Source: Peptococcaceae bacterium BRH_c23
Lineage (GTDB): Bacteria; Bacillota_B; Desulfitobacteriia; Desulfitobacteriales; Desulfitobacteriaceae
Assembly: GCA_000961805.1 (NCBI GenBank)
Contig: LADV01000203.1
Span: 1-21,056, forward strand
Reading direction: 5' to 3'
DNA: 21,056 bases
Part shown: positions 4,705 to 20,883 of the stretch, in pieces
Layout: every line of letters begins with the position of its first letter
Numbering within the stretch: the stretch's first letter is position 1
Translations under genes and position numbers: made by a program
Notes under the pieces: generated by a model
What the model was told of the DNA's origin: nothing
Database searches by the model: none
Seen by the model: only the letters and a program-made list of their open reading frames with translations

Positions 4705-4721
4705 TGTATATTTTGTATACA
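4705..4721. promoter_or_regulatory. Palindromic operator in front of the sigma-54 activator gene
   Basis: TGTAT-ATTTTGT-ATACA, a perfect match to the 17-bp palindrome found before the catabolic units, centred about 35 bp upstream of the activator start codon. A TTGACT at 4739-4744 (minus strand) could be a -35 element; the matching -10 region would then overlap this palindrome, which suggests negative autoregulation. The rest of the 4679-4895 gap holds a 13-bp palindrome (ACCGTT-G-AACGGT near 4778-4790) and two copies of ATGCTCGA near 4832-4852, with no coding sequence seen. Confidence 0.65.
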
Positions 4722-4895
4722 TCATATCAGAAAAAACCAGTCAAACCTCCTTTAATCTCCGAAAGGGATAAATTGACCGTTGAACGGTAGTAACAAGGTT
4801 TTTAACAGGGTACAGTCGCTGCACGCATCCGATGCTCGAGGCTCAATGCTCGATGTCCGAAGCACAAAGTAGAATGATTTAATGCACAATGTTAA

Positions 4896-5333
4896 TTATG
4901 CATTAATATTATTTCCTCTAAAGCTATCCTTGGTCTTAAACGAGACCTCTGCTGATCCCGTCAATACTTCTTCTCCGTTAGCTTTAGTCACAATAAGGTC
5001 ACATTTTACGGCATCAGACAGAGCATCTTTAATATAGCCAGAAAAAACTATCCGTTCTCCAACTCGAACCATATTTTTAAACCGGACTTCAAAACTCTTA
5101 AGGGTTCCTTCTTCACTTATCCAGTCTGTCAGCATGGCTCCAAGTTGAGCCATAGTCAACATCCCGTGAGCTATTATACCGTCAAATCCTGCTTTTCGGG
5201 CAAATGCCTCGTCTAAGTGAATAGGATTAAAATCACCTGAAGCCTCTGCATACTGCCGTAATTGCAGGTCGGTTGGCCACCATTCTCTACTGGGGAGCGA
5301 GTCGTTAACCTGATAATCCCAAAGGTGTTTCAT
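4896..5333 (-). CDS. MaoC-like (R)-specific enoyl-CoA hydratase / dehydratase subunit
   Basis: A 145-residue single hot-dog domain with the hydratase-2 signature: YAEASGDFNPIHLDEAFARK holds catalytic Asp34 and His39, and GFDGIIAHGMLTMAQLG follows. Enzymes of this family add water to trans-2-enoyl-CoA, usually giving the (R)-3-hydroxyacyl-CoA. ATG 5333 has AGGAAAG just upstream and lies 15 bp after the crotonase stop, so it is the last gene of a three-gene unit. The first gene of the unit is also a hot-dog protein but lacks the catalytic motif, so the two may form a heterodimer like mycobacterial HadAB. The substrate is not readable from sequence. Confidence 0.82.
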   Translation of the reverse strand: MKHLWDYQVNDSLPSREWWPTDLQLRQYAEASGDFNPIHLDEAFARKAGFDGIIAHGMLTMAQLGAMLTDWISEEGTLKSFEVRFKNMVRVGERIVFSGYIKDALSDAVKCDLIVTKANGEEVLTGSAEVSFKTKDSFRGNNINA

Positions 5334-5348
5334 CTTTCCTACAGATAC

Positions 5349-6128
5349 CTACCTTCCCTGAAAGTTTGGCTTACGCTTTTCCATAAAAGCCTTCATACCT
5401 TCTTTTTGATCCTCGGTGGCGAACAAAATACTGAAGCATCTTTGCTCATACTGCAGTCCTGCTTCCAAGTCCATGTGCAGCCCCTCATTGACGCAAGACT
5501 TTGCCATACGTAAAGCAACAGCCCCCTGACTCGCAAAGCGTTTAGCCATTTTTCTGGCTTCCTCGAAAAGTTCTTCAGCGGGAACTACTTTATTGACCAG
5601 GCCAATACGAAATGCCTCCTCAGCGCTGATAAAGTCACCGCTAAAAAGTAACTCTTTGGCTCTGCCTGCTCCGACGAGTCTTGGCAAACGCTGGGTTCCT
5701 CCGATTCCAGGCAAAATACCTAGTTTAATTTCCGGCAAGCCAAACTTGGCAGAGTCAGCGGCAAGACGTACATCTGCAACTAAGGCTAATTCACATCCAC
5801 CGCCCAGAGCATAACCTGCAACCGCTGCAATTACCGGTTTGGGCATATTTTCGATAGCGTTAAAAGCACGGTGTGCAGGTTGGTCATCTGTAGCAAAATC
5901 AACCGTAGTTGCTGTAGCCATTTGATCGATATCTGCTCCGGCTGCAAACACTTTGTCGCCTCCTGTGATAATGACTACCCGTACAGAATCATTCATGCCC
6001 AGTTCCAAAGCGGCTTCGCCTAATTCCCTAATAACCTGACTGTTTAAGGCATTTAACACCTTAGGCCGATTAAGGGTAATTGTTCCAATTCCGTCGTTGA
6101 TTTGTACTAGGATCGTTTCGTATGGCAT
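5349..6128 (-). CDS. crt: Enoyl-CoA hydratase / crotonase (3-hydroxybutyryl-CoA dehydratase)
   Basis: A 259-residue crotonase-fold protein of typical length. The oxyanion-hole segments are FAAGADI (61-67) and ALGGGCELAL (107-116). The two catalytic glutamates of classical hydratases are present at about Glu113 and Glu133 (the latter in LPEIKLGILPGIGGTQRL). It should hydrate crotonyl-CoA to (S)-3-hydroxybutyryl-CoA, the step between the AbfD-type dehydratases and Hbd encoded nearby. ATG 6128 follows AAGGAG with a 10-base spacer. It is flanked on both sides by MaoC-like genes in one unit: 24 bp after the upstream gene and 15 bp before the downstream one. The sequence does not fix the chain-length preference. 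Confidence 0.9.
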   Translation of the reverse strand: MPYETILVQINDGIGTITLNRPKVLNALNSQVIRELGEAALELGMNDSVRVVIITGGDKVFAAGADIDQMATATTVDFATDDQPAHRAFNAIENMPKPVIAAVAGYALGGGCELALVADVRLAADSAKFGLPEIKLGILPGIGGTQRLPRLVGAGRAKELLFSGDFISAEEAFRIGLVNKVVPAEELFEEARKMAKRFASQGAVALRMAKSCVNEGLHMDLEAGLQYEQRCFSILFATEDQKEGMKAFMEKRKPNFQGR

Positions 6129-6152
6129 TTATCTAATCTCCTTATTTTAGAT

Positions 6153-6560
6153 TTAAATTTCATCCCTATGATCAGAGAAGATCACTGTTGAACTCATTGA
6201 AAAAACCTGTTCCCCCGCATGATTGCACCCCGTAGTCTCAACTATAACAAACGTCATTTTGCCAACCTTACCGGACCGTTCAAAAACATCCTTGATCCGA
6301 CGAGTATAGACTATATTGTCACCGATTGAAACCGATTGAAAATAAACGAATTTTTGTTCACCATGAATTGTTCCGGGTTGAAATAGATCAACCCCTTCAA
6401 TACTACCTTTCATAAAGGTTCCAAAGAAAGTTGGAGGCACCCGGTTTTCAAAGGGAATACCCACCGTTTCGGCGAACCTGCGAACTACATCTGCCTCGAT
6501 CTTTACTCTAACTGGTTTGCTTTCCCGACCAATTAAATCTTTGCCAATTATTTTTACCAC
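6153..6560 (-). CDS. MaoC-like N-terminal dehydratase domain protein (FAS1-like hot dog)
   Basis: A 135-residue single hot-dog domain resembling the N-terminal half of MaoC dehydratases: VKIEADVVRRFAETVGIPFENRVPPTFFGTF, then GTIHGEQKFVYFQSVSIGDNIVYTRRIKDVFERSGK. It has no D-x4-H hydratase motif, so it is more likely the non-catalytic or substrate-binding partner of the MaoC protein two genes downstream. The GTG start at 6560 directly abuts a GGGGAGG ribosome site, leaving almost no spacer, so the true start may be a non-standard codon a few residues inside (the AUA/AUU codons near residues 4-5). It is first in the unit maoC-crt-maoC. Confidence 0.75.
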   Translation of the reverse strand: MVKIIGKDLIGRESKPVRVKIEADVVRRFAETVGIPFENRVPPTFFGTFMKGSIEGVDLFQPGTIHGEQKFVYFQSVSIGDNIVYTRRIKDVFERSGKVGKMTFVIVETTGCNHAGEQVFSMSSTVIFSDHRDEI

Positions 6561-6581
6561 CTCCCCTTTTGATATTACATA

Positions 6582-6767
6582 CTAAAAAGCATCTTCAGGA
6601 ATGTCTATTGCTGAGCTGTCCTCCTCTTTAATTACCCTTACTGTTGCCATAACGTCTGGAACAATATTTCTAACATAAAAACGTGCGCTGAAAATTTAAA
6701 AAATCTTTTCTCCTTCCAGCCATTCCTTAATGATAAATTTGTGATCCAGGTTATGATAAATAAAGTG
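6582..6767 (-). pseudogene. C-terminal fossil of an acyl-CoA dehydrogenase
   Basis: Reading the minus strand gives a 62-codon frame ending at TAG 6582-6584. It contains FIIKEWLEGEKIF, an in-frame TAA at 6696-6698, then SARFYVRNIVPDVMATVRV and ends in IDIPEDAF. This tail resembles acyl-CoA dehydrogenases that carry the extra C-terminal domain and end in a PEEAF-like motif. The rest of the ~590-residue enzyme is missing. The remnant lies just before the maoC-crt-maoC genes and in their orientation, so an acyl-CoA dehydrogenase probably once headed that operon. The stretch between it and the hairpin at 6878 shows no other identifiable gene. Confidence 0.6.
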
Positions 6768-6846
6768 GCTAGACAAATTTAACTCCACCTTCTTCCTCAA
6801 CATCAGAGAAAATTAAACACTTGTAGCGGCTGTTACTTACTTAACT

Positions 6847-6863
6847 TTCAATAATCGTGCCAA
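6847..6863 (-). promoter_or_regulatory. Probable sigma-54 promoter of the maoC-crt-maoC unit
   Basis: Minus strand TTGGCACGATTATTGAA: a perfect -24 box (TTGGCACG) but TTGA in place of TTGC at -12. The support is positional: the two upstream palindromes lie 63 and 106 bp from it, almost the same as the 62 and 105 bp seen before the second abfD gene. Transcription would begin near 6837, giving a ~277-base leader that includes the acyl-CoA dehydrogenase fossil. Confidence 0.6.
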
Positions 6864-6877
6864 CAATAACTATACAT

Positions 6878-6924
6878 AAAAATCCCTCAGGCAAACGTTA
6901 AAAAGCCCTGGGGGATTTTAAACT
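6878..6924 (-). terminator. Terminator of the thiolase-hbd unit
   Basis: On the minus strand AAATCCCCCAGGGC pairs with GCCTGAGGGATTT across a ~12-base A/T-rich loop (one G-T pair, one bulge) and runs into a T tract. It is about 80 bp after the hbd stop. Confidence 0.82.
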
Positions 6925-6925
6925 T

Positions 6926-6985
6926 TGTATAGCTTTGATACAAACAAGCAGGTGCCACTTAGCAAGTATGTATACTAATGATACA
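6926..6985. promoter_or_regulatory. Pair of palindromic activator sites upstream of maoC-crt-maoC
   Basis: Two perfect matches: TGTAT-AGCTTTG-ATACA (6926-6942) and TGTAT-ACTAATG-ATACA (6969-6985), with start points 43 bp apart, about four helical turns. They lie 63 and 106 bp upstream of the -24 element at 6863, a typical place for sigma-54 enhancer sites. They sit between the hbd terminator and the hbd stop codon. Confidence 0.75.
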
Positions 6986-6999
6986 CACAGTATCTAATC

Positions 7000-7851
7000 T
7001 TAATACTTATAGAAACCTTCTCCGCTCTTCCGACCATGTTTACCTGCTCTGCACATTTGTTTGATTATCTGCGGTGCAGCGTACTGGCTGTCGCTGAATT
7101 CATCAGCAAAGTATTCCATAACATGATAGGCAAGATCAATTCCACCAAAATCCAACAGTTCAAACATGCCCATGGGATAGTTGAGTCCAAGCTTTACAGC
7201 GGTATCAATGTCTTCAACGGATGCAACTCCTTCCTGCAGGAGGCGGGCAGCCTCAATCAGCTGGGGCATCAAAATCCGATTAGCTATGAATCCTGGGGAA
7301 TCCTTTTTGACCTCAACCGTTGTCTTGCCGAAAGCGCGGGCTAAATCAGTTGCTTCTGCTATCGTTTCGTCCGAACTCTGCGTTCCACGGATGATTTCCA
7401 CTAACCGCATAATCTGAGCTGGATTAAAAAAGTGCATACCGCAGACTTTGTCAGGGCGGCCTGAAGCAGTTGCAATTTCCGTGATCGACATGGAAGAAGT
7501 ATTAGTAGCAAAGATGACCTCAGGCCCGCACACCTTGTTCAGGGTCTGAAACACCTCCTTCTTTAGATCCATCTTCTCTAAAACTACCTCGATTATGAAA
7601 TCAGCAGCCGCCATATCCTCCAGCGCAGTCGTCTTTTTAAGCCTACCTAAAGTTACCTGTCGTACCTCCTCGGTCATCTTCCCTTTTTCAACAGAGCGCG
7701 CCATGAACTTATCCATATTAGCTACGGCACGATCAATAAACGTCATGTCGATATCCCGTAGGATTACATCATATCCTGCCATAGCGGCTATATGAGCAAT
7801 ACCTGTTCCCATAGTTCCAGCGCCAACAACTCCAATTGTGCGAATGTTCAT
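7000..7851 (-). CDS. hbd: (S)-3-hydroxybutyryl-CoA dehydrogenase
   Basis: A 283-residue short-type 3-hydroxyacyl-CoA dehydrogenase, the usual length for Hbd. The N-terminal NAD-binding Rossmann motif is GVVGAGTMGTGIAH (7-20). Substrate and catalytic residues are in ATNTSSMSITE (Ser119), GMHFFNPAQIMRLVEII (His140, Asn143) and DSPGFIANR. The C-terminal dimerisation domain ends in GRKSGEGFYKY. It oxidises (S)-3-hydroxybutyryl-CoA to acetoacetyl-CoA in the cytoplasm. ATG 7851 has AAGGAGG upstream. It follows the thiolase gene by 57 bp in the same orientation and the pair ends at a strong hairpin, so the two form one operon performing the last two steps to acetyl-CoA. Confidence 0.94.
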   Translation of the reverse strand: MNIRTIGVVGAGTMGTGIAHIAAMAGYDVILRDIDMTFIDRAVANMDKFMARSVEKGKMTEEVRQVTLGRLKKTTALEDMAAADFIIEVVLEKMDLKKEVFQTLNKVCGPEVIFATNTSSMSITEIATASGRPDKVCGMHFFNPAQIMRLVEIIRGTQSSDETIAEATDLARAFGKTTVEVKKDSPGFIANRILMPQLIEAARLLQEGVASVEDIDTAVKLGLNYPMGMFELLDFGGIDLAYHVMEYFADEFSDSQYAAPQIIKQMCRAGKHGRKSGEGFYKY

Positions 7852-7908
7852 CGTGGATCCTCCTTAAAATTGGTTCTTTTCTCCATCACAACGGCAGATT
7901 TAATATTC

Positions 7909-9093
7909 TTAATCAAGATATTGTTCTACAATTATAGCACTAGCCGGACCGCCGCCACCGCAAAGAGAAGCACACCCAAACCGGACACCGCGACGTCGCA
8001 TTTCATTGAGCATTGTAACGATCAACCGAGCCCCAGTGCAACTGACTGGATGGCCTAAGGAAATACCTGAACCATTAGCATTAACTTTATCCATGTCCAG
8101 GTTTAGTTCTCGGTTAACGGCTAAAAATTGAGACGCAAATGCTTCATTGATCTCCCAGTAGCCAATATCATCGATCTTGAGATTCGCAAACTTCAAGACG
8201 CGCTTTACTGCTGGGACGACTCCAATCCCCATAATTTTTGGATCTACAGCCGCTGAAGCAGAGGCAACTATACGTGCCAACGGTTTACATCCAAGTTCCT
8301 TGGCCTTGTCCAACGACATGAGAATCAAGGCGGATGCGGCGTCATTCAAGCCGGACGCATTTCCAGCAGTAACGGTTCCCTCTTTATCAAAAGCTGGTTT
8401 TAATTTTGCCAAACCTGCTAGGGTTGTGTCAGGCTTGGGATGTTCATCCGTATCAACCCAAATGGATCCCTTCTTAGTTTTTATCTCAACCGGGATGATC
8501 TCGTCTTTAAACTTGTTGTCCTTGATTGCCTGACAGGCCCTTTGGTGGCTAAGCAGAGCTAATTCATCCTGTTCCTCGCGAGTAATTTTATACATTTTTG
8601 CAAGATTTTCCGCAGTGACTCCCATGTGGTAGTTGTTAAAGGCGTCGATCAATCCGTCGTTAAACATGGCATCAACAATCTGAGCAGATCCCATGCGATA
8701 TCCATTTCGCGCCCCAGGTAAAAGATAGGGTATACTTGACATACTCTCCGGCCCAACAGCTGCCCCGATATCCGCCTTACCTAATATAATTTCCTGAGAT
8801 AAAATTTCTGTAGCCCTCATAGAAGATACGCATAGCTGATTAACTGTAACTGCTACTGTCTCAACTGAGCAACCTGTTCCTAACGCGACCTGTCGGGCTG
8901 TGTTGGGTTTGCAGCCAGCCTGATTGGAGTGCCCGGCTACTACCTCTTCGATTTGGCCTGGTTCTATCTTAGCTTTGTTCAACGCAGCTTTAAGTGCTAT
9001 TATCCCTAATTCGACGGCCGAAACGTTTTTCAAAGAACCTAAAAAATCGCCGATGGGGGTACGCATGCCACTGACGATAACAACTTCACGCAA
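7909..9093 (-). CDS. thlA: Acetyl-CoA C-acetyltransferase (thiolase)
   Basis: A 394-residue thiolase with all the catalytic residues at classical positions: nucleophile Cys88 in VNQLCVSSMRA, Asn316 in NEAFA, His348 in SLGHPVSCTGAR and Cys378 in SLCGGGGPA. It should cleave acetoacetyl-CoA into two acetyl-CoA, or run in reverse. The start is TTG 9093 (MREVVIVSGMRTPIG), with AGGAGAG upstream at proper spacing. Two small departures from the usual family text are HPVSCTGA where HPIGASGA is common, and LCGGGGPA where GGGMG or similar is common; neither removes a catalytic residue. A -24/-12 promoter lies ~195 bp upstream, and the leader holds an 8-bp hairpin (GAGGTTTG / CAAACCTC, 9189-9216). Confidence 0.92.
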   Translation of the reverse strand: MREVVIVSGMRTPIGDFLGSLKNVSAVELGIIALKAALNKAKIEPGQIEEVVAGHSNQAGCKPNTARQVALGTGCSVETVAVTVNQLCVSSMRATEILSQEIILGKADIGAAVGPESMSSIPYLLPGARNGYRMGSAQIVDAMFNDGLIDAFNNYHMGVTAENLAKMYKITREEQDELALLSHQRACQAIKDNKFKDEIIPVEIKTKKGSIWVDTDEHPKPDTTLAGLAKLKPAFDKEGTVTAGNASGLNDAASALILMSLDKAKELGCKPLARIVASASAAVDPKIMGIGVVPAVKRVLKFANLKIDDIGYWEINEAFASQFLAVNRELNLDMDKVNANGSGISLGHPVSCTGARLIVTMLNEMRRRGVRFGCASLCGGGGPASAIIVEQYLD

Positions 9094-9298: not shown

Positions 9299-9315
9299 TG
9301 CAAAAATTGTGCCGG
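9299..9315 (-). promoter_or_regulatory. Sigma-54 promoter of the thiolase-hbd operon
   Basis: Minus strand CCGGCACAATTTTTGCA has GG and GC separated by exactly 10 bases and a CGGCAC / TTTTTGCA core close to the TGGCAC-N5-TTGCW consensus. The start point would be near 9287, giving a ~195-base leader. A perfect palindromic activator site lies 120 bp upstream. Confidence 0.78.
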
Positions 9316-9381
9316 ACCGCACTAGATAATACTGAGCTCACGCCAAACCTACTCAAGAAATACATCTTTAACCCGTTTTCA

Positions 9382-9681
<300 letters not shown>

Positions 9682-9796: not shown

Positions 9797-9813
9797 TTGG
9801 TATGGATCTTGCA
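9797..9813 (+). promoter_or_regulatory. Sigma-54 promoter of the CoA-transferase gene
   Basis: TTGGTATGGATCTTGCA has GG-N10-GC spacing and is nearly identical in its -24 half to the two abfD promoters (TTGGTATG). It lies 115 bp upstream of the TTG start. The rest of the 9665-9928 interval is A/T-rich with no gene seen. Confidence 0.8.
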
Positions 9814-9928: not shown

Positions 9929-11263
9929 TTGAACTCAAAGTTTCAAGAAGAATACAAACGGAAGTTTATGTCGCTGGAAGATGCGGCTAAATTGATACAA
10001 TCCGGGGACAAGATTGTGTCAAATCAATGTGCCAGCGAACCGGTTGGTTTACTAAATGCAATCGGTAAACGGGCTATGGCGAAAGAATTTGATGATGTTG
10101 AGCACATAGGGTTTGGGCCAACGTTATCGACAGATTGGATAAAACCCGAAGTTTATCCCCACTTTAGGATAAGTACAACGTTCATTTTAACTCCTCCAGT
10201 GAGAAAAGCTGTAAATAATGGGTATGCTGATTTTATTCCAGAACATTTGCATAATGTCCCTAATACTTTAACCAATTACCTGCTTAAAGACCTTCCTCCA
10301 GGAAAGGCCAAGGTAATATCCAGTGTTACCCCCATGGACAAGCACGGGTATTTCTGTACAGCCACTGCTCCTTTCTATTTTCACGAACCTGCGCGGATGG
10401 AGAATACGATGGTAATCCTGGAAGTTAACGAGAATCAACCCCGGGTATTTGGTGATAACTTCATACACATATCGCAGGTTGATTATATTGTTGAAAATAA
10501 CCAACCGTTATTTACGAATCCAGCGGTGACAGAGAGCACGGCTGAGGATATTGCCATTGCCAATCTATTGCTAGAAATGATTGAGGATGGGTCTACTATA
10601 CAGTTGGGAATTGGAGGGATGCCTAATTTACTAGGTAAGCTCCTGGCAAATAAACATGATTTAGGAGCCCATACGGAGATGCTGGGAGATGCATATAAAT
10701 ATCTATGGGAATTAGGCGTCTTAAACGGGAAAAAGAAAACACTAAAACCTGAGAAAATATGTGCTTGTTTTGCTATGGGGTCAGTCGAAACGTATCAGTG
10801 GATGCACGAGAATCCTGCGGTGGAGATGCGCAGACAAGCTTGGACCAATGATCCATATATAATAGGACAGAATAATAAAATGGTCTCAATAAATCAGGCT
10901 CTTTCAGTAGATCTTACTGGTCAGGTGTGTTCTGAAAGCATTGGCCCGATTATGTATAGCGGTACCGGTGGCCAGATGGATTTCACTCTAGGATCACAGC
11001 TTTCACCCGGGGGGAAAGGCTTTTTATGCCTTAAATCAACAGCCGTTACAAAGAATGGACGGATTTCAAAAATTGTTCCGTTGTTAAATCACGGCTCAGC
11101 GATTACTACTCCACGTCAGGAAGTTAATCACATCGTAACTGAATATGGGGTTGCTCAACTTAGAGGAAAGAATATAAAACAGCGTGCTCAAGAGTTAATT
11201 AGTATTGCTCATCCCGATTTTAGAGCCGAACTTCGCGAAGAGGCAAAAAGACTTAATTTGTAA
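9929..11263 (+). CDS. abfT: 4-Hydroxybutyrate CoA-transferase / acetyl-CoA hydrolase family protein
   Basis: A 444-residue class I CoA-transferase of the acetyl-CoA hydrolase/4-hydroxybutyrate CoA-transferase type. The start is TTG 9929, 8 bases after AGGAGG; an ATG at 9910 is in another frame and closes at once. Features: N-terminal SLEDAAKLIQSGDKIV; IQLGIGGMPNLL (225-236); DLGAHTEMLGD, whose Glu250 aligns with the glutamate that carries CoA in this family; QNNKMVSINQALSVDLTGQV; GTGGQMDFTLGS; and VTEYGVAQLRGK with AHPDFRAEL near the end. It would activate an imported acid with CoA from acetyl-CoA or butyryl-CoA. The nearby AbfD-type genes favour 4-hydroxybutyrate as substrate, but other short acids cannot be excluded. 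Confidence 0.85.
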   Translation: MNSKFQEEYKRKFMSLEDAAKLIQSGDKIVSNQCASEPVGLLNAIGKRAMAKEFDDVEHIGFGPTLSTDWIKPEVYPHFRISTTFILTPPVRKAVNNGYADFIPEHLHNVPNTLTNYLLKDLPPGKAKVISSVTPMDKHGYFCTATAPFYFHEPARMENTMVILEVNENQPRVFGDNFIHISQVDYIVENNQPLFTNPAVTESTAEDIAIANLLLEMIEDGSTIQLGIGGMPNLLGKLLANKHDLGAHTEMLGDAYKYLWELGVLNGKKKTLKPEKICACFAMGSVETYQWMHENPAVEMRRQAWTNDPYIIGQNNKMVSINQALSVDLTGQVCSESIGPIMYSGTGGQMDFTLGSQLSPGGKGFLCLKSTAVTKNGRISKIVPLLNHGSAITTPRQEVNHIVTEYGVAQLRGKNIKQRAQELISIAHPDFRAELREEAKRLNL

Positions 11264-11488: not shown

Positions 11489-12802
11489 TCATTCAAATAA
11501 CCGATTTGGAAGCCACATAATTATCTCAGGAAATATCACAAATAGTATTACGCATACTATCATAATTAGGACGAAGGGGAAGACCGACTTGTATATATCT
11601 CCCATCGTTACATCTTCTGGGACAATTCTTTTCATATAGAATAGACTGAAACCAAAAGGGGGGGTCAAGTATCCAAGCTGCATATTGACAATGAAAAGAA
11701 CACCGAACCAAACCGGGTCAAACCCTAACGTTTTTATAAGAGGGACAAAAATCGGAACAGTAAGCATTATGATTGCACCAGGATCCAGAAACATACCCAG
11801 GATAAATAAGAGAAACATTATTCCTATCAAAATAAGATAAGGTGATAGTGGTAGTAAAGCTATCGACTCTTGTACAAGCTGTATTGCTCCTGTAGATGCA
11901 TAAAGGGAAGTAAAGGCAGCGCTCCCAAGGATAATCCATACGACCATTCCAGAGAGTTGTAAAGTTTGGTAGCAAGTCTCTTTGATAACTGACCAAGTAA
12001 GTTTATGATTAATCGCAGCGCATAGGACACTGCCCAAACTACCGATGGCGGCAGCTTCCGTAGGAGTAGCAACACCCAAAAAAATCGAACCTAAAACTCC
12101 AAAAACAAGAAGCAAGGGGAGAATCAATCCGCGTAAAGCTACGAGCTTTTCCCTCATAGAAACTTTCTCTTCAAGTGGGATAGCTGGAGCTAGTTGAGGT
12201 TGCAAGAAGGCTTTTATAGCTATATAGGCCATGAATAGAAAGGACATCACTAAACCAGCAACGACCCCTCCGGCGAACAGCCGACCTACAGACTCCGACC
12301 CAAAAACCCCATAGATAATCATTAATACACTAGGAGGAATAAGTACTCCCAAAGTTCCCCCTGCACAAATACAACCAATAGCCAAATGTTTGTTGTAACC
12401 GCGTTTAAGCATAGCTGGAAGGGCTATAACCCCCATTGATATGGTAGCTGCAGCACTTGTTCCGGTCAAAGCTGCAAATATGGTGCAGACTACAACAGTC
12501 CCAATCGCTAAGCCTCCTCTAACGCCGCCCAACCATTTATACATTAACTCATAGGCATCTTCGGCTATGCCTGAGCGCTGGAGAATTACTCCCATAAAGA
12601 TGAACAAAGGTATAGCAATAATAACAAAATTTTCCATTACTCCATAGGCGTTACCGGCAATAGCAGCTAAGGATCTGGGACCCAACAGGAAATAGGAAAA
12701 TATAGTAGCAAGTCCTCCCATGATGAAAGCTAGCGGCAATCCTGAAATAAGAAGTACAATAAGCAAAGCAAACAAAAGAAGTGAAACGAAACCAACGCTC
12801 AT
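11489..12802 (-). CDS. dctM: TRAP transporter large permease subunit (DctM type)
   Basis: A 437-residue, very hydrophobic integral membrane protein with about 12 membrane spans, the normal size for DctM. Family marks include the N-terminal LLLISGLPLAFIMGGLA, IPLFIFMGVILQRSGIAEDAY, the segment FAALTGTSAAATISMGVIALPAM (stated here in part), and LGMFLDPGAIIMLTVPIFVPL. It is the transport subunit and would import an organic acid using the ion gradient. Its ATG overlaps the dctQ stop (TAATG), indicating translational coupling, and it is the last gene of dctPQM. The 26-bp palindrome follows 118 bp after its stop. Substrate is not readable; the neighbouring genes suggest 4-hydroxybutyrate or a similar short acid. 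Confidence 0.93.
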   Translation of the reverse strand: MSVGFVSLLLFALLIVLLISGLPLAFIMGGLATIFSYFLLGPRSLAAIAGNAYGVMENFVIIAIPLFIFMGVILQRSGIAEDAYELMYKWLGGVRGGLAIGTVVVCTIFAALTGTSAAATISMGVIALPAMLKRGYNKHLAIGCICAGGTLGVLIPPSVLMIIYGVFGSESVGRLFAGGVVAGLVMSFLFMAYIAIKAFLQPQLAPAIPLEEKVSMREKLVALRGLILPLLLVFGVLGSIFLGVATPTEAAAIGSLGSVLCAAINHKLTWSVIKETCYQTLQLSGMVVWIILGSAAFTSLYASTGAIQLVQESIALLPLSPYLILIGIMFLLFILGMFLDPGAIIMLTVPIFVPLIKTLGFDPVWFGVLFIVNMQLGYLTPPFGFSLFYMKRIVPEDVTMGDIYKSVFPFVLIMIVCVILFVIFPEIIMWLPNRLFE

Positions 12803-13302
12803 TATCTCTCTTCCCCCTTAACTAAAGTGGTGACGTCTCGGGCGAATTTAGCAATCCCCTGAAGGAGTAGGAGAAAAGCCCCTATGGGCAGCATAATTTT
12901 TATCGGATAGAGAGGCGGACCCCATATGCTTGAAGAATGTTCCATAATTCTTATAGAGTACAAAGCCCTTTCCCCTCCTTTAAAGATTAGCGCTACGCAA
13001 AAGGCAGCGAAAACCCCAAACGTAATTATGTCTATAAAAGCTTGTTGCCTTCTGGAGAGACGATTGTAAACCAAATCCATATTTACATGTCCTTTGATCG
13101 ATAAAATGTAGGCCGCACCAAGTACAATGTAGGTGCCAAACAACATGCCCGAAGCTTCATGGACCCAAATAGTGGGGGCATTTAATACATATCTTGCTAT
13201 TACTTCATAACCAATTATTAGGTTCAGCACAATTATTAATAAAGAAATGAATTTTCCTGAACACTCACTAACAAGATCAATGTAATGCAAAATTATTCTC
13301 AA
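12802..13302 (-). CDS. dctQ: TRAP transporter small permease subunit (DctQ type)
   Basis: A four-helix membrane protein of 166 residues with the DctQ-typical segments NLIIGYEVIARYVLNAPTIW, VHEASGMLFGTYIVLGAAYI and GHVNMDLVYNRLS. The start is placed at TTG 13302, which has GGAGG seven bases upstream; the longer open frame from GTG 13356 adds 18 residues but has no properly spaced ribosome site and gives an atypical N-terminus. Its stop overlaps the dctM start by one base. The 78-bp gap after dctP holds a hairpin (GAGGGG / CCCCTC, 13337-13361) that could lower expression of the membrane subunits relative to the binding protein. Confidence 0.88.
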   Translation of the reverse strand: MRIILHYIDLVSECSGKFISLLIIVLNLIIGYEVIARYVLNAPTIWVHEASGMLFGTYIVLGAAYILSIKGHVNMDLVYNRLSRRQQAFIDIITFGVFAAFCVALIFKGGERALYSIRIMEHSSSIWGPPLYPIKIMLPIGAFLLLLQGIAKFARDVTTLVKGEER

Positions 13303-13336
13303 TTGTGCACCTCCGTTATTAACTAATGTTAATATC

Positions 13337-13361
13337 GAGGGGAGCGGTGGATACACCCCTC
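13337..13361 (-). promoter_or_regulatory. Hairpin between dctP and dctQ
   Basis: A 6-bp G/C stem (GAGGGG and CCCCTC) with a 13-base loop lies 19 bp after the dctP stop. No T run follows, so it is more likely an mRNA-stabilising or partial-attenuation element than a full terminator. Confidence 0.45.
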
Positions 13362-13380
13362 CCCCCGACTAATCAACTTC

Positions 13381-14481
13381 TTACCAGGACAACTCACCAA
13401 ATTTTGGTGAGACGTTTTTGGCATCTAATCTTTCCTTGTGAAATTCCTTAAGCATGGTTATTACTTTTGCGTTAACTGGGTTTTTTGCTGCTATTTTATC
13501 CCATACTGTTGACGAAATTTCCTGCGCTTTTGCTTGATCTTCTTCAGATAATGTGTTCACCGTAACGCCAAATTTATCAACCATACTATCAAGCGCTCTA
13601 CTGTACATAGCCCGAGTTTGCTCTTCAGTTGCCCTACTACCATTTATAACAGCTGCTTCAATGGCCTTTCTTTGTCCAGGAGTGAACTTATTCCACACAT
13701 CTAAGTTAAAATATATACTGTTCCATGCTCCCTGTATTGGATCAGGCAGCATGTAATTTTTTAAGACCTCCGGAAACTTCATCTCATACATTGGCCCTGC
13801 GTCACCCCAACTAACTCCATCTATGACACCAGTAGACAAGGCTGTGTATAGCTCAGACCCTGGTATACTAACAACTGAGCTTCCAGCCGCGGTCTCAAAC
13901 ATACTCATTCCGCCAATAGACCTTAATTTCATCCCTTTTAAATCAGCAAACTGTTTAACCGGTTTTTTAGTCATTAAGCCGACGTTATAAGTTTCAACGG
14001 GAATTACGTAAATTTTTTGCTTAGCATATTCTTGCCGCAGTATATCCAGAAATCCTCTTTGCCACATGAAAATCCAGGCTTCATGTAAATTTTTATAGCC
14101 GTAGGGTAAACCTGAGGCGATTTCGCTTACTGGTATTACACCTGCAAATAGGCCTTCTGGAAGCAATGCCATATCAAGTCCTCCTGAAGTTAAGCCATTA
14201 AGCATTTCTGGCACCGGCATCAGTACCCCTGCAGAGTACGGCGTGATCTTGACTGTCCCATTAGTCTCTTTCTCTATTAGTTTAATAGTAGGACCCAGAG
14301 TACGCTCTAACTGTTCCCCAGAGAGGTGAGATTGCAATTTCAGATTAACTACCGGAGCAGAAGCTTCAATTGTTGACGTAGGATTAGAGTTTTGGGATAC
14401 TGTTGGTTTTTGTGCCATGCAGCCAACCAGGCTCATAGCTAATAACAATACTAACGAAATTGACAACACTTTTTTCTTCAT
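13381..14481 (-). CDS. dctP: TRAP transporter substrate-binding lipoprotein (DctP type)
   Basis: A 366-residue extracytoplasmic solute receptor. The N-terminus is a lipoprotein signal (MKKKVLSISLVLLLAMSLVG-C with lipobox LVGC, Cys21), so in a Gram-positive cell it would be tethered to the outer face of the membrane. Family features are GPTIKLIEKETNGTVKI (P/T-rich lobe I start), DLKGMKLRSIGG (with the conserved arginine that binds the substrate carboxylate), ELYTALSTGVIDGVSWG and WNSIYFNLDVWNKF. ATG 14481 has GGAG upstream at normal spacing. It leads dctPQM behind a sigma-54 promoter and a 272-base leader. The substrate is probably a monocarboxylate handled by the adjacent CoA-ester enzymes; that is inference. 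Confidence 0.92.
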   Translation of the reverse strand: MKKKVLSISLVLLLAMSLVGCMAQKPTVSQNSNPTSTIEASAPVVNLKLQSHLSGEQLERTLGPTIKLIEKETNGTVKITPYSAGVLMPVPEMLNGLTSGGLDMALLPEGLFAGVIPVSEIASGLPYGYKNLHEAWIFMWQRGFLDILRQEYAKQKIYVIPVETYNVGLMTKKPVKQFADLKGMKLRSIGGMSMFETAAGSSVVSIPGSELYTALSTGVIDGVSWGDAGPMYEMKFPEVLKNYMLPDPIQGAWNSIYFNLDVWNKFTPGQRKAIEAAVINGSRATEEQTRAMYSRALDSMVDKFGVTVNTLSEEDQAKAQEISSTVWDKIAAKNPVNAKVITMLKEFHKERLDAKNVSPKFGELSW

Positions 14482-14763: not shown

Positions 14764-14780
14764 TGCAATAATTATGCCAA
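14764..14780 (-). promoter_or_regulatory. Sigma-54 promoter of dctPQM
   Basis: Minus strand TTGGCATAATTATTGCA, with GG-N10-GC spacing and a near-consensus TTGGCAT / ATTGCA core. Two palindromic activator sites lie 62 and 95 bp upstream. Start point expected near 14753. Confidence 0.82.
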
Positions 14781-14841: not shown

Positions 14842-14891
14842 TGTATATATTGAATACATATTAATCGTTGCAGCTGTCTACAAAGAATACA
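14842..14891. promoter_or_regulatory. Pair of palindromic activator sites upstream of dctPQM
   Basis: TGTAT-ATATTGA-ATACA (14842-14858, perfect arms) and TGTCT-ACAAAGA-ATACA (14875-14891, one mismatch) start 33 bp apart. The nearer one is 62 bp from the -24 element, the same distance as before abfD. Confidence 0.7.
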
Positions 14892-16897: not shown

Positions 16898-17005
16898 CTA
16901 CGCTTTAACGTTTTTCCTTAACTCTGTCTTTAGAGTCTTACCGCTGACTGTTTTGGGCAATTGCTCAAGGATGATAATACTTTTCGGAACTTTGTATAGT
17001 ACAAC
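16898..17005 (-). pseudogene. C-terminal fossil of an AMP-forming acyl-CoA ligase
   Basis: Immediately after the abfD copy 1 stop, the minus strand reads VVLYKVPKSIIILEQLPKT and then VSGKTLKTELRKNVKA to a TAG at 16898. This is the terminal segment of acyl-CoA synthetases, including the A10 motif PKTxSGK with its catalytic lysine. Only 35 codons of ~550 remain, joined directly to the abfD stop, so a deletion probably removed the rest. An acid-CoA ligase once followed abfD in this operon; the CoA-transferase could now do its work. Confidence 0.78.
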
Positions 17006-18526
17006 CTATTTTACTGAATTTTTAAATTTATCCAGCATCTTTCTTGGTGTCACAGTCTCCCTCTCATAGATGGGAAGTTCTTTATTAATTCCGGCCAGAT
17101 ACTTGGCGATATTCTTCAGACCTTCCAGATCGTACCGGGACATCATAGTAATGGTTTCCATCAATGGAGAGCCACCGCCGTGCATTCCTGCTACCATCTG
17201 TGCTCCGGAGAAATGCGAGCACAGCTGGTTCTCTACCATCCTGAAGCACCTATGTGTGTCTTCGGAGGAAATATTCGGGTTTCTCTTGATATACTTGTTC
17301 ACGAGCGAGCCAGTTTCCTCAGAAAAGAACTCCGCTTCCATGGGCAGGGTGGCACTCAGCCCACCTGCTAGGTCGGCTAGGATACTATACTCATTGTAAA
17401 TCTCTTGACCTGCTAACCGTCTTCCAGCATTGGTAAGAATTTCGTCTGGTACAAAGGAGCCGGATGGGAATTTTACACCGCGGTAGGCACTGGCCTGTCC
17501 TGCAGCAAACACTAGCTCTGCGGTACCGATGATGTGAGAAATCTTTTCCTTAACATGTTCAGCCTTTTGAATTCCATTGTATTCAGCCACGAGTGCCGCT
17601 TGACTGGCCAGAACTTCGGAAACAGCTGTTTTACAGCCTGTGTAGGAGTGTCTATGGAAGTGGGCGAACATCAGGGCCAAGTAGCCCGCATATTGTACAA
17701 CCTCAGGATTCTCTCTGCCGTTCATGAATACTCTTTCGTTAGGTACAAACACATCGTCAAAAATGGTCATCGATTCGACATCACCCACTTCACCCATTGG
17801 CGCCGGCAAGTATTTGCGCTTGCTATGACCACCAGGTAGAGCTATTAGCTTAACACCTTCCCAGTCCGAGGGAATGGCGAAGGCGACAGCATAGTCAGCG
17901 TCCTTTACGCCCATCAAACGCGTCGGCAAAACGATGATTTCATCCGCATAAGGAGCTATTGAGTTACAGATCTTAGCCCCTCTGACAATGATGCCATCCG
18001 GCTTTACATCGACAATCTTTACATACTGATCGGGATCCGCCTGTTCATGCGGCCTCTTCATTCGGTCACCCTTGGTGTCGGTCTGAGCACAGTTGGCCAC
18101 AAGGTCGTTAGCCTGGGAATACTCTAGGTATTTCAGAAATCTCTTGTTGTATACGGTGCCACAAGCCTCGTCCATATCATAGGTAACAACGGCAAGGGCA
18201 TTGAGCGCATCATTTCCCATACATCTTTGGATACACCCGCCCACTCGGTGACACAGCAGTCTCGTCATCCGTTGTTTCTTCAACAAATCATCCATGCTTT
18301 GATGAATGTGGGTATACCGATTGATTTTTTCACCGGTAAGGTGAGATGTTGCAGTACATACCTCCTCATAAGCCGGGTTGTGGGCGCAGTCAAAAGTCTG
18401 TTTTATGACATATAGCCCGCCGTTAATCCAATCACCAGTTCTATCGACTTTTTTACCGTTGATATAAACGTTTGGTTTCATCTTCTTTAGGCGGTCGACA
18501 TAGTTTTTATAAGTTCCTACTGGCAT
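17006..18526 (-). CDS. abfD: 4-Hydroxybutyryl-CoA dehydratase family protein, copy 1
   Basis: A 506-residue member of the AbfD / HpaB flavoprotein family. The [4Fe-4S] ligands of AbfD are all present: Cys98 and Cys102 (GGCIQRCMG), His291 and Cys298 (HRHSYTGCK), with the radical-chemistry Tyr295 and Lys299 beside them. The flavin-site text TDTKGDRMKRPHEQ and VPNERVF is also typical. In the classical enzyme a glutamate precedes MHGAGSP near the C-terminus; here the text is VAGMHGGGSP, so that glutamate (Glu455 in Clostridium aminobutyricum, from memory) appears replaced by Ala446. It is expected to turn 4-hydroxybutyryl-CoA or a related ester into crotonyl-CoA-type product, oxygen-sensitively, in the cytoplasm. 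ATG 18526 follows AGGAGG. Its sigma-54 promoter is ~93 bp upstream. It leads the unit with the zinc dehydrogenase and broken SDR. Confidence 0.85.
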   Translation of the reverse strand: MPVGTYKNYVDRLKKMKPNVYINGKKVDRTGDWINGGLYVIKQTFDCAHNPAYEEVCTATSHLTGEKINRYTHIHQSMDDLLKKQRMTRLLCHRVGGCIQRCMGNDALNALAVVTYDMDEACGTVYNKRFLKYLEYSQANDLVANCAQTDTKGDRMKRPHEQADPDQYVKIVDVKPDGIIVRGAKICNSIAPYADEIIVLPTRLMGVKDADYAVAFAIPSDWEGVKLIALPGGHSKRKYLPAPMGEVGDVESMTIFDDVFVPNERVFMNGRENPEVVQYAGYLALMFAHFHRHSYTGCKTAVSEVLASQAALVAEYNGIQKAEHVKEKISHIIGTAELVFAAGQASAYRGVKFPSGSFVPDEILTNAGRRLAGQEIYNEYSILADLAGGLSATLPMEAEFFSEETGSLVNKYIKRNPNISSEDTHRCFRMVENQLCSHFSGAQMVAGMHGGGSPLMETITMMSRYDLEGLKNIAKYLAGINKELPIYERETVTPRKMLDKFKNSVK

Positions 18527-18618
18527 TTTTTATCCTCCTCGTATTAATTAGTTTTTCCAGTAAATTTGATAAGACCAAAATTTAAATTTTATCATATGAT
18601 TTTGTAAATTCAGTGTAT

Positions 18619-18635
18619 TGCAAAAAACATACCAA
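18619..18635 (-). promoter_or_regulatory. Sigma-54 promoter of abfD copy 1
   Basis: Minus strand TTGGTATGTTTTTTGCA, GG-N10-GC. It differs at one position from the promoter of abfD copy 2, and lies 93 bp before the start codon, as there. Confidence 0.85.
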
Positions 18636-18639
18636 CCAC

Positions 18640-18915
18640 TACCAAAAGTAAAGAAAACTTGGCTGGCGCCCACGAAGACACTGTCTTCGCACGTATTAGC
18701 CTTCTTGCAGACACTGTCTTCGCACGTGTTAACTTAGCGGAGAAGCCATGGCGAAGGCGGCCGCCTTAGTTGCACTTATGCTTCCAGAAAGTATACAACT
18801 GAAAGTTATACTTTCTGACTAGTATAAAGTAAACTTGGCTGGTGCCAAGCCTTCTGATGAAGACAGATACCATAGTTACACTGATACGGACTGATTGTAA
18901 TACTTTATGATTGTA
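18640..18915. repeat. ~267-bp repeat-rich insertion between abfD1 promoter and its enhancer sites
   Basis: Comparison with the abfD copy 2 upstream region shows extra DNA here: promoter-to-enhancer distances are 329 and 372 bp rather than 62 and 105, a difference of exactly 267 for both sites. The insert has a direct repeat AAACTTGGCTGGYGCC at 18655-18670 and 18831-18846; a tandem repeat AGACACTGTCTTCGCACGT at 18676-18694 and 18709-18727, the first inside a 17-bp palindrome (18673-18689); and an 11-bp perfect inverted repeat (18785-18795 / 18807-18817). It has no transposase gene. It could be a miniature transposable element or a repeat cluster; the exact ends are not fixed. Confidence 0.6.
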
Positions 18916-18922
18916 TAAAAGA

Positions 18923-18960
18923 ATCCCCCGAATGGCCTAGAAAGCACGGGGGATAAAGTT
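18923..18960 (-). terminator. Terminator of abfD copy 2
   Basis: ATCCCCCG / CGGGGGAT forms an 8-bp stem (18923-18930, 18947-18954); on the minus strand it is followed by TTCTTTTAT. It lies ~180 bp after the abfD copy 2 stop and would insulate the next promoter. Confidence 0.7.
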
Positions 18961-18963
18961 ATT

Positions 18964-19023
18964 TGTATATTTATAAGATAATTATACTTAATTCGTTCAT
19001 TATAACTGTATACAATAGAGACA
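18964..19023. promoter_or_regulatory. Pair of palindromic activator sites of abfD copy 1
   Basis: TGTAT-ACAATAG-AGACA (19007-19023, one mismatch) and the weaker TGTAT-ATTTATA-AGATA (18964-18980, two mismatches) start 43 bp apart, matching the pair before abfD copy 2. The stretch 19024-19131, up to the abfD copy 2 stop, shows nothing recognisable. Confidence 0.62.
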
Positions 19024-19131
19024 CCATCAGTTTTAATCTTGAATTGCTTTCAGCTTAGTCTTCAATATTGAACGAATCACAATGTAATTAGAGAAGTATG
19101 CCAGCATCAAGAATGGGTATAGTACGTTCAA

Positions 19132-20652
19132 TTACTTTTGAGACTTTTTGAATTTATCTAGCATCCGCCTTGGTGTGACGGTTGCCCGCTCGTATATGGG
19201 CAGGTCCGGATTGATCCCGGCAAGATACTTGGCAATATTCTTCAGGGCTTCGAGGTCGTACGCGCCCATCATCGCAATGGTTTCCATGATAGGAGAACCG
19301 CCGCCGTGCATTCCTGCTACCATCGTTGCTCCGGCAAAATGCGAACAAAGCTGGTTTTCAACCATCCGGAAGCAGCGGTGGGTGTCTTCAGCGGAAATAT
19401 TCGGGTTTCTTATAATGTACTTGTTCACAAGCTCTGCTGTTTCTTCCGCGTAGAACTCCCCTTCGAGCGGCAGGGTGGCACTTAACCCTCCTGCCAGGTC
19501 AGCCAGGATGCTATATTCATTGTATATCTCTTGACCCGCCAACCGTCTGCCGGCATTGGTGAGAATTTCATCCGGCACGAAGGAGCCAGATGGAAATTTT
19601 ACGCCGCGGTAGGCGCTGGCCTGTCCTGCAGCAAACACTAATTCTGCGGTTCCAATGATGTGAGAGATCTTTTCCTTAACGTGTTCTGCTTTTTCAATCC
19701 CGTTGTATTCGGCTACGAGCGCGGCCTGGCTGGCCAAAACTTCGGAAATGGCTGCTTTGCAGCCTGTATAGGAATGTCTGTGAAAGTGCGCGAACATCAA
19801 GGCTAGGTAGCCCGCATATTGAACAACATCAGGATTCTCTAAGCCATTCATGAAAACTCTTTCATTGGGCACGAATACATCGTCAAAGATGGTCATTGAT
19901 TCAACATCACCGACTTCACCCATCGGTGCCAACAGATTTTTCCGTTTGCTATGCCCACCAGGCAAAGCCATCAGTTTGACACCCTCCCAGTCGGCGGGAA
20001 TGGCAAAAGAAACGGCATACGCAGCGTCCTTAGCGCCCATGAAGCGAGTCGGGGTCACAATAATTTCATCCACATAGGGAGCATTAGAGTTACAGATCTT
20101 AGCCCCTCTGACAATGATGCCATCAGGTTTTACTTCTACAATCCTTAAATACTGATCGAGATCCTCCTGTTCATGCGGCCTCTTCATCCGGTGACCCTTG
20201 GTATCGGTTTGAGCACAGTTGCCGACAAGGTCGTTGGCTTGGGTATACTCTAAATATTTCAGGAATCTCTTATTGTATTCGGTGCCACAAGCCTCGTCCA
20301 TGTCATAGGTAACTACTGCAAGTGCATTAAGGGCGTCAATTCCCATACATCTTTGGATACAGCCTCCTACTCTGTGGCAGAGTAGTCTGGTCATCCGTTG
20401 TTTTTTCAGCAAATCATCCATGTTTTGGTGAATATGGGTATATCGATTAATTTTTTCACCGGTCAGGTGAGATGTGGCTGTGCATAATTCCTCATAAGCC
20501 GGGTCGTGGGCGCAGTCAAAGGTCTGCTTCATAACATACAGCCCGCCATTGATCCAATCACCAGTTCTATCGACCTTCTCCCCGTTGATATAGACGTTTG
20601 GTTTCATTTTCTGAAGACGCTCGACATAATTTTCATAAGTACCTACTGGCAT
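19132..20652 (-). CDS. abfD: 4-Hydroxybutyryl-CoA dehydratase family protein, copy 2
   Basis: A 506-residue paralogue of copy 1 with no gaps and about 89% identity by eye (roughly 56 differences). It keeps the iron-sulfur ligands Cys98, Cys102, His291, Cys298 and the neighbouring Tyr295 and Lys299, and has the same VAGMHGGGSP text lacking the usual glutamate. Differences cluster on likely surface positions and in residues 163-241; none hits the cluster motifs. ATG 20652 has GAGGAGG upstream. It is transcribed alone: its own sigma-54 promoter lies 94 bp upstream and a terminator follows. The duplication includes the promoter and activator sites, so both copies should be induced together; why two are kept is unknown. 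Confidence 0.85.
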   Translation of the reverse strand: MPVGTYENYVERLQKMKPNVYINGEKVDRTGDWINGGLYVMKQTFDCAHDPAYEELCTATSHLTGEKINRYTHIHQNMDDLLKKQRMTRLLCHRVGGCIQRCMGIDALNALAVVTYDMDEACGTEYNKRFLKYLEYTQANDLVGNCAQTDTKGHRMKRPHEQEDLDQYLRIVEVKPDGIIVRGAKICNSNAPYVDEIIVTPTRFMGAKDAAYAVSFAIPADWEGVKLMALPGGHSKRKNLLAPMGEVGDVESMTIFDDVFVPNERVFMNGLENPDVVQYAGYLALMFAHFHRHSYTGCKAAISEVLASQAALVAEYNGIEKAEHVKEKISHIIGTAELVFAAGQASAYRGVKFPSGSFVPDEILTNAGRRLAGQEIYNEYSILADLAGGLSATLPLEGEFYAEETAELVNKYIIRNPNISAEDTHRCFRMVENQLCSHFAGATMVAGMHGGGSPIMETIAMMGAYDLEALKNIAKYLAGINPDLPIYERATVTPRRMLDKFKKSQK

Positions 20653-20745
20653 TTTGTATCCTCCTCAAATTATAGTCTCCTAAAATGGTTTTGACTAAAG
20701 TGAAACACTGAAGCCTTATTACATAACCTTTAATTTAAGTCTTAT

Positions 20746-20762
20746 TGCAAAAATCATACCAA
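20746..20762 (-). promoter_or_regulatory. Sigma-54 promoter of abfD copy 2
   Basis: Minus strand TTGGTATGATTTTTGCA with GG-N10-GC spacing; start point expected near 20734. Activator sites lie 62 and 105 bp upstream. Confidence 0.86.
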
Positions 20763-20784
20763 ATACCTCCGAAGTGAAAAAAGC

Positions 20785-20815
20785 CCTCAGAATGGTATAA
20801 AGTTGCTGAGGAAAA
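20785..20815 (-). terminator. Terminator of a gene beyond the right edge
   Basis: CCTCAG / CTGAGG stem (20785-20790, 20806-20811) flanked by A-rich sequence on the left and AAAAAA on the right; on the minus strand it runs into GGCTTTTTT. It may end a minus-strand transcript entering from outside the window, and could also work in the + direction. Confidence 0.65.
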
Positions 20816-20823
20816 AAGTGATT

Positions 20824-20883
20824 TGTATATAATTAATATCATTAAACTGAAATTGCTGGCTTCAGCTGTATACAATAGAGACA
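20824..20883. promoter_or_regulatory. Pair of palindromic activator sites of abfD copy 2
   Basis: TGTAT-ACAATAG-AGACA (20867-20883, one mismatch; 19 bases identical to the copy 1 site) and the weaker TGTAT-ATAATTA-ATATC (20824-20840) start 43 bp apart, 105 and 62 bp from the promoter. Confidence 0.65.

Follow-up and report, generated by a model that had tools for sequence, protein, structure and literature searches.

A putative sigma-54 regulon for short-acid catabolism in Desulfosporosinus-like bacteria, and a one-base palindrome spacing that covaries with the recognition helix of its activator

A reconstruction of sigma-54-dependent regulation in 57 Clostridiales has delineated 39 groups of activators, and its account of 15 of the clostridial groups gives enhancers of the form TGT-N10-12-ACA (Nie et al. 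2019, PMC6615313). Two Clostridium regulators treated there, CrbR and XanR, stand closest to the system described below. Here we analyze the 21,056-nucleotide contig LADV01000203.1 of Peptococcaceae bacterium BRH_c23 (assembly GCA_000961805.1, positions 1 to 21,056 of the forward strand), referred to in full as the window, in which a single PAS-domain sigma-54 activator (3266..4678, minus strand) very probably regulates a cluster of acid-catabolism genes through a 17-bp palindrome, TGTAT-N7-ATACA, found at six sigma-54 promoters and at the activator's own gene. This reading is drawn from comparative sequence analysis, and would supply short-acid catabolism in Desulfosporosinus with an activator, putative operators and promoters.

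CrbR is like the activator of the window in being a sigma-54 activator over crt-hbd-thl-maoC-type genes, and the two share a TGT-ACA inverted repeat of the 10-12 bp spacer class that occurs in multiple sites before the promoter (PMC6615313). The CrbR targets, however, include bcd-etfAB and are assigned there to butyrate/butanol synthesis in Clostridium, whereas the window carries abfD, abfT and a tripartite ATP-independent periplasmic (TRAP) transporter in a Desulfosporosinus-like host, and no bcd-etfAB was found among the 17 window proteins scanned with Pfam. XanR also has a regulon with an abfD operon, but its motif is described as distinct from TGT-ACA and its distribution as limited to Clostridium (PMC6615313). 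The sites of NifA and FhlA are likened in the same paper to the clostridial TGT-ACA class; the window motif extends this form to TGTAT-N7-ATACA, and the window protein scores below the curated cut-off for NifA (TIGR01817, 360 versus 528.85 bits) as well as that for PrdR (NCBIfam NF041552, 463.5 versus 795 bits). A further study reports that beta-oxidation clusters of orthologous groups (COGs) and COG2368 (AbfD/HpaB, including 4-hydroxybutyryl-CoA dehydratase) are sigma-54-regulated in Clostridia, as they appear to be here, but the passages considered here tie no activator or binding motif to the pathway (PMC12316311). Table 1 of PMC6615313 does not contain the present regulon, its Desulfosporosinus entries (YcbP, XhpR, XptB and YpyB) having other targets, and our literature searches on Desulfosporosinus, sigma-54 and 4-hydroxybutyrate topics returned no description of it by title or opening of the abstract. 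The first-pass annotation of this DNA, made from the sequence alone, knew of no described regulon with the motif; in the sources above this holds for the regulon, but the TGT-N10-12-ACA class had already been described (PMC6615313). The kind of system is already known, and what is new narrows to the regulon itself and, should they be confirmed, the self-operator and one-base spacing code discussed below.

The activator is a protein of 470 aa with the architecture PAS - AAA+ (GAFTGA) - HTH_8, matching Pfam PAS_4 (3e-7), Sigma54_activat (2e-72) and HTH_8 (6.1e-10, residues 422-462). It carries the GAFTGA motif at residue 231 and a C-terminal Fis-type helix-turn-helix (HTH), both features of sigma-54 enhancer-binding proteins, and its recognition helix reads RRAF (A type). 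It is 93% identical to a Desulfosporosinus burensis protein. A sigma-54 gene is present in all 29 of the Desulfosporosinus genomes that we surveyed, a set that does not include the source genome.

All six units of the proposed regulon possess -24/-12 elements with palindromes upstream, as expected of targets of an enhancer-binding protein, and each element predicted by the first-pass annotation could be located. Five have GG-N10-GC spacing, namely those of thl-hbd (CGGCACAATTTTTGCA; 9299..9314, minus strand), abfT (TGGTATGGATCTTGCA; 9798..9813, plus strand), dctPQM (TGGCATAATTATTGCA; 14764..14779, minus), abfD1 (TGGTATGTTTTTTGCA; 18619..18634, minus) and abfD2 (TGGTATGATTTTTGCA; 20746..20761, minus), and the element of maoC-crt-maoC is GG-N10-GA (TGGCACGATTATTGAA; 6847..6862, minus). 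The upstream palindromes that had been named were likewise all found at the spacings claimed for them, with pairs 43 bp apart at maoC, abfD1 and abfD2, pairs 33 bp apart at abfT and dctPQM, and a single site at thl-hbd. Exact copies lie at 6926..6942 (63 bp from the maoC element) and 43 bp further upstream at 6969..6985, at 9435..9451 (120 bp from the thl element) and at 14842..14858 (62 bp from the dctPQM element), with a one-mismatch copy 33 bp upstream of the last at 14875..14891. The abfT sites at 9615..9631 and 9648..9664 each have one mismatch and stand 166 and 133 bp from their element. At abfD2 a two-mismatch site (20824..20840, 62 bp from the element) is accompanied 43 bp upstream by a one-mismatch site (20867..20883), and at abfD1 the equivalent two-mismatch and one-mismatch sites (18964..18980 and 19007..19023, again 43 bp apart) begin 329 bp from the element. 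This last distance becomes 62 bp once an insert of approximately 267 bp between enhancer and promoter (18650..18925, boundaries approximate) is discounted; parts of the insert recur at several other Desulfosporosinus loci, including control regions, which gives it the look of a mosaic assembled from dispersed repeats. Together with the copy at the activator gene, the window holds five exact palindromes, five with one mismatch and two relevant sites with two mismatches. The 10 sites with one mismatch or fewer all fall in the intergenic, non-coding 20.7% of the window, where 500 first-order resamples of that DNA gave 0.25 on average and never more than 2; at two mismatches the enrichment is weak (19 matches, 11.4 expected).

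The first-pass annotation described the regulon as local, but it is more than that: an activator orthologue occurs in 23 of the 29 genus genomes (46 hits at E <=1e-150, with 66-74% identity to the window protein). We compared 40 regions around these genes (39 from genus genomes and one from genome G003; 739,137 bases) with 400,000 bases of control DNA, taken as 20 regions from four of these genomes. Exact TGTAT-N7-ATACA palindromes numbered 46 in the activator regions versus 0 in the controls, four scrambled palindromes gave 1-3 and 0-2 exact matches, respectively, and spacers altered to 5, 6, 8 and 9 bases gave 0, 1, 9 and 0 in the activator regions. Perfect sigma-54 sites (TGGCAYRN4TTGCW) numbered 65 versus 1. 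A sigma-54 match lies within 400 bp on the correct side of 37 of the 46 exact palindromes, and some of the others are self-operators. Scattering of palindromes with no link to -24/-12 promoters had been proposed as grounds for discarding the regulon; we found such a link, with 29 pairs in which an exact palindrome lies upstream of a perfect sigma-54 site within 250 bp versus 2 in which it lies downstream. Conservation before orthologous units, the second point on which the earlier reading had staked itself, was also borne out, with sites beside related genes in many genus genomes and in three other family genomes. The neighbours in relatives comprise maoC, crt, hbd, thl, abfD-like, abfT-like and adh genes. 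AbfD-like genes are present in 23 of the 29 genomes (E 1e-100), the same set as for the activator save for two genomes, one with AbfD-like genes and no activator orthologue (G015) and one with the reverse (G030).

Outside the genus, we examined eight activator hits from seven of 15 family genomes, and three RRAF activators among the extra-genus loci (L230, L231 and L232) have N7 sites. The L230 locus has, by our own reading, a GG-N10-GT element that is preceded by an exact N7 site and by a terminator-like hairpin, and an open frame beyond it that starts like an enoyl-CoA hydratase. In strain CEB3 (L190) the paired sites stand at 62 and 105 bp, as in the window. A family-wide activator search at E 1e-221 gave no match in 45 genomes, leaving the genus set as the nearest genomes reached, and a profile search of contigs with the activator alignment was dominated by generic AAA+ motifs, its best 80 loci reaching at most 54% identity; three of its loci (L012, L018 and L039) served as entry to whole genomes.

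Genomes of this genus can encode dozens of sigma-54 activators, which raises the question of how each finds only its own promoters. The activators in question here offer a possible handle. In a tree of 42 proteins (40 of the 46 genus hits, the one from G003 and that of the window, with five hits outside the fetched regions and one gene split between two regions left aside) the HTH is mainly of two types, RRAF (20 proteins) and RRVF (18). We then took the first downstream sigma-54 promoter of each activator gene; an N7 palindrome with at most one mismatch occurs there beside 12 of 16 A-type and 3 of 18 V-type genes. A palindrome one base longer (N8, 18 bp, typically TGTATCTAATTCCATACA) stands beside none of the 16 A-type genes and 14 of the 18 V-type genes, and at two mismatches these figures become 0 of 16 and 17 of 18, although two of the latter (L178 and L181) look like chance. 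A type in this comparison means RRAF plus two RGAF proteins, and it omits the window, the RRSF gene and six genes that have no sigma-54 site closer than 700 bp; control spacers of 5, 6, 9 or 10 bases reach one mismatch in 6 of 35 genes. In terms of the published class the sites are TGT-N11-ACA in the window and TGT-N12-ACA beside most V-type paralogues, both within TGT-N10-12-ACA. Searched across the 29 genomes, the N8 consensus TGTAYCTAATTCCATACR gave eight matches versus 0 for the reversed pattern, all eight within 4 kb of a V-type gene; as the consensus was taken from V-type loci, the information lies in its absence elsewhere in these genomes. The changed residue, Ala454 in the window protein, faces Fis position 87 when counted on the Fis alignment, which we take to be a DNA-contacting residue. 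One protein (L159) reads IRRVF, with the Ile kept and the Val present, and stands beside an N8 site with one mismatch, which suggests that the change at Ala454 may have come first. The two HTH types are found in the same genomes (e.g. G001, G006, G012 and G014).

This covariation ties the motif to the activator, and is the best evidence that the activator itself would bind the palindromes. With the recurrence in relatives and the promoter link, it supports the earlier proposal that the PAS protein controls an acid pathway through the motif. It could also amount to a concrete code from one activator family, in which a change in the recognition helix accompanies a one-base change in palindrome spacing and the two types coexist within genomes. 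We consider it an even call that paralogues are indeed separated by a 1-bp difference in half-site spacing (17-bp TGTAT-N7-ATACA for RRAF, 18-bp TGTAT-N8-ATACA for RRVF) in conjunction with a loss of negative autoregulation and with an operon terminator commonly placed in the enhancer-promoter loop, both treated below. A serious if somewhat less probable alternative is that both types bind both spacings, the N7/N8 difference reflecting shared promoter ancestry with no switch in specificity. The V-type genes essentially form one clade, such that the covariation represents few evolutionary events, and at three of them (L178, L181 and L183) the adjacent sigma-54 promoter is preceded by an N7 palindrome but lacks a good N8 site. 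Ancestry accounts less readily for the lack of any N8 site within two mismatches at the 16 A-type promoters, for the confinement of the N8 consensus to the surroundings of V-type genes, and for the alignment of the changed residue with the presumed Fis contact position. Moreover, spacer length is not the same at L183 as at the closely related L185, although the proteins they adjoin are nearly identical, which makes these genes a natural test of the spacing code.

The fifth exact palindrome of the window (4705..4721) lies 26 bp before the activator start codon and belongs to the activator's own promoter as opposed to a sigma-54 promoter. It overlaps a TG-preceded, -10-like hexamer, TATGAT (4721..4726, minus strand; extended -10), of a predicted sigma-A promoter, the last T of which is the first base of the palindrome. 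The arrangement is general among RRAF activators, where 19 of 20 genes, the window included, carry a palindrome of one mismatch or fewer no more than 60 bp from the start codon, with TATAAT, TATGAT or TATACT in the same register in 18 of them. Among RRVF genes an operator match was found in only 1 of 18, and out of register; the difference gives a Fisher p of 1.6e-8, calculated with two RGAF, one RRSF and one RKSF protein left out and overstated since the RRVF genes are essentially one clade. Two RGAF activators (L160, 2747-, and L169, 15147-) have no self-operator at one mismatch or fewer, and RGAF is a second HTH change that accompanies operator loss. A dimer bound to the palindrome would sit over the -10 end and the start region of the sigma-A promoter, where it would be expected to hinder RNA polymerase, and this position suggests that the activator represses its own gene. 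It is unlikely, though not far-fetched, that the site is instead positive or neutral, with the activator stimulating its sigma-A promoter or leaving it unaffected: the repressive reading takes its cue from site position, and that same position, over the -10 end and start region, is awkward for either alternative.

Searches of the 29 genomes (~136 Mb, from rounded sizes) bear on whether another regulator might bind these palindromes. The complete architecture (palindrome, 55-75 bp, GGN8TTGC) gave 16 hits in 11 genomes versus 0 for the reversed pattern, and 14 of the 16 lie within ~15 kb of an activator orthologue; lengthening the sigma-54 spacer by one base left 1 hit and 1 reversed-control hit. 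All 11 genomes are among the 23 with an orthologue (E 1e-150), and none are among the six without one, where palindromes are also in no clear excess (17 versus 13 reversed). A pattern of exact site pairs found just 2 of the 29 genomes, and is too strict for survey purposes since one site of each pair is usually imperfect. On the question of genome-wide scatter raised with the first-pass reading, the palindrome alone is enriched only about two-fold over its reversed control. We consider it improbable that a different regulator, such as a paralogous activator, binds the palindromes while the adjacent activator controls something else. Candidates for such a role exist, as the Desulfosporosinus orientis genome is reported to encode 67 sigma-54 activators (PMC12316311), paralogues 66-74% identical to the window protein coexist in one genome, and the three V-type genes named above adjoin N7 palindromes; but an outside regulator would not be expected to leave its site in register at the activator's own promoter in 18 of 20 RRAF genes, nor to have a palindrome type that follows the HTH of the neighbouring activator, nor to give no architecture hit in the six genomes without the orthologue, against 11 of 23 with one. 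Chance or functionless duplication of the sites finds some support in the abfD1 and abfD2 promoters, which resemble one another as copies, and in the palindromes at 6969 and 9435, which are identical 17-mers. The same geometry nevertheless recurs in other species, and the enrichments of exact sites, sigma-54 sites, architecture and intergenic sites given above make such an explanation very unlikely indeed, to the point that we give it almost no weight.

Several observations weigh against regulation of the cluster by this one activator, in addition to the single V-type clade and its three exceptional genes. Exact palindromes number 181 in the 29 genomes versus 92 for the reversed pattern, and just 44 of them (the 46 above less two in G003) fall within the fetched activator regions, which make up ~0.5% of this DNA, so most of those elsewhere are background or unexplained. 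With one mismatch allowed, the activator regions contain 77 palindromes versus 23-68 for the scrambled patterns. Twelve of the 23 genomes with an orthologue give no hit at the strict architecture pattern, 4 of the 16 A-type genes have no N7 site at one mismatch at the adjacent promoter, and the locus of one RRAF gene of the wider family (L233) has no site with one mismatch or fewer. The fixed 62-63 bp geometry of the first-pass annotation holds for maoC, dctPQM, abfD2 and, after correction for the insert, abfD1, but not for the remaining two of six promoters, thl (120 bp) and abfT (133 bp). Lastly, helical phasing as a general rule has to be rejected, as none is seen outside 50-75 bp (36 sites, p ~0.24).

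Within that range phasing does hold. A survey of loops between enhancer (N7 or N8) and promoter that measure 50-75 bp comprised 27 distinct cases (reduced from 30, with two mismatches allowed for window loops and one for relatives), of which 11 are exactly 62 bp, 7 are 50-53 bp and 3 are 72-75 bp; four window promoters are outside the pattern or distance range of this survey. These lengths are consistent with whole helical turns, although the fit is much the same for a period of 10, 10.5 or 11 and the Rayleigh values are overstated, related loci having been treated as independent. Pair spacings up to 60 bp are 41-43 bp in seven pairs from relatives and 33 bp in two window pairs, with one overlapping pair 9 bp apart set aside; the 43-bp pairs of the window are outside this set on account of its stricter promoter pattern and mismatch limit.

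The loops commonly contain a terminator-like hairpin with a T tail, found in 16 of 27 versus 1.5 expected from mononucleotide (not dinucleotide) shuffles, and a standard terminator scan with a loop limit of 8 flags none of these hairpins (9 found overall, 13.7 expected). In the window, the wider script flags such a hairpin in the abfD2 loop and none in the dctPQM loop, and one was read by eye in the abfD1 loop. Another, read by eye in the maoC loop (6881..6917, minus strand, with a T run), is outside the scored loops and unflagged by the scan with loop limit 8, and probably serves as the terminator of thl-hbd. The natural interpretation places the enhancers directly behind the upstream gene, whose terminator then falls between them and the next promoter.

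These data can be assembled into a model. A dimer of the activator would bind the 17-bp palindrome through its Fis-type HTH and occupy one or two sites at each of the six sigma-54 promoters, the nearer often 62 bp from the -24 element and the second beyond it by 33 or 43 bp, distances close to whole helical turns. Looping and ATP hydrolysis would then open the sigma-54 polymerase complex, and at its own gene a single site over the sigma-A -10 end and start region would most likely block the promoter. The targets would span uptake (TRAP), CoA activation (AbfT), dehydration (two AbfD copies) and beta-oxidation (Crt, MaoC, Hbd and thiolase). What the sequence itself establishes is the presence and geometry of the sites, the fact that they recur in relatives, and the way they covary with the HTH of the activator; the earlier reading is right on the anatomy of the locus and in all likelihood on the regulator.

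The products of the cluster fit this assignment. Adjoining the activator gene is the maoC-crt-maoC operon (4896..6560, minus strand), which encodes a MaoC dehydratase, an enoyl-CoA hydratase and a FAS1-type dehydratase by Pfam, and next come hbd (7000-7851) and thiolase (7909-9093; together 7000..9093, minus; Pfam 3HCDH_N and Thiolase_N). The abfT-like gene (9929..11263, plus; Pfam AcetylCoA_hyd_C) matches PDB 3eh7, a 4-hydroxybutyrate CoA-transferase, at E 8.8e-97, and dctPQM (11489..14481, minus; Pfam) encodes the TRAP subunits DctM, DctQ and DctP. The two genes of the 4-hydroxybutyryl-CoA dehydratase family, abfD1 (17006..18526, minus; HpaB fold, Pfam HpaB_N) and abfD2 (19132..20652, minus), are 89% identical, and AbfD2 matches PDB 1u8v, a gamma-aminobutyrate metabolism dehydratase/isomerase, at E 9.7e-95; the homologue PDB 6vjr bears the name vinylacetyl-CoA delta-isomerase. 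Residues C98, C102, H291 and C298 of AbfD2 supply a C,C,H,C set that is present at the aligned positions in all 32 AbfD-family proteins compared (both window copies and 30 relatives), and which corresponds to the positions of the [4Fe-4S] cluster ligands in 1u8v. The window also encodes a zinc alcohol dehydrogenase. Most simply, the targets would form a pathway from 4-hydroxybutyrate or a related short acid to acetyl-CoA.

A number of smaller features deserve mention. A short-chain dehydrogenase (14920-15752) is divided between two open frames, 14920-15486 and 15501-15752, apparently by a frameshift or sequencing error. The maoC promoter region contains a 37-residue match to the C-terminus of acyl-CoA dehydrogenases (6585-6695; E 1.8e-4, below the cut-off) that is probably the remnant of a lost gene, and a small open frame at 9379-9630, which contains the thl palindrome at 9435, weakly resembles nitronate monooxygenase (E 1.4e-4, below the cut-off) and is probably a gene remnant too. 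Among the relatives, two short activator pieces lie side by side at L152 (14114-14597), adjoining an N7 site and a sigma-54 site, and are apparently a broken activator paralogue, and at L237 a more distant activator (45% identity) is followed downstream by an exact N8 palindrome that precedes a sigma-54 site by ~200 bp. Finally, ahead of the cluster (202-2580) are an O-acetylhomoserine sulfhydrylase-type gene and a gene of the homoserine O-succinyltransferase family; L176 likewise has homologues of both (83-86% identity where aligned) in the vicinity of an activator.

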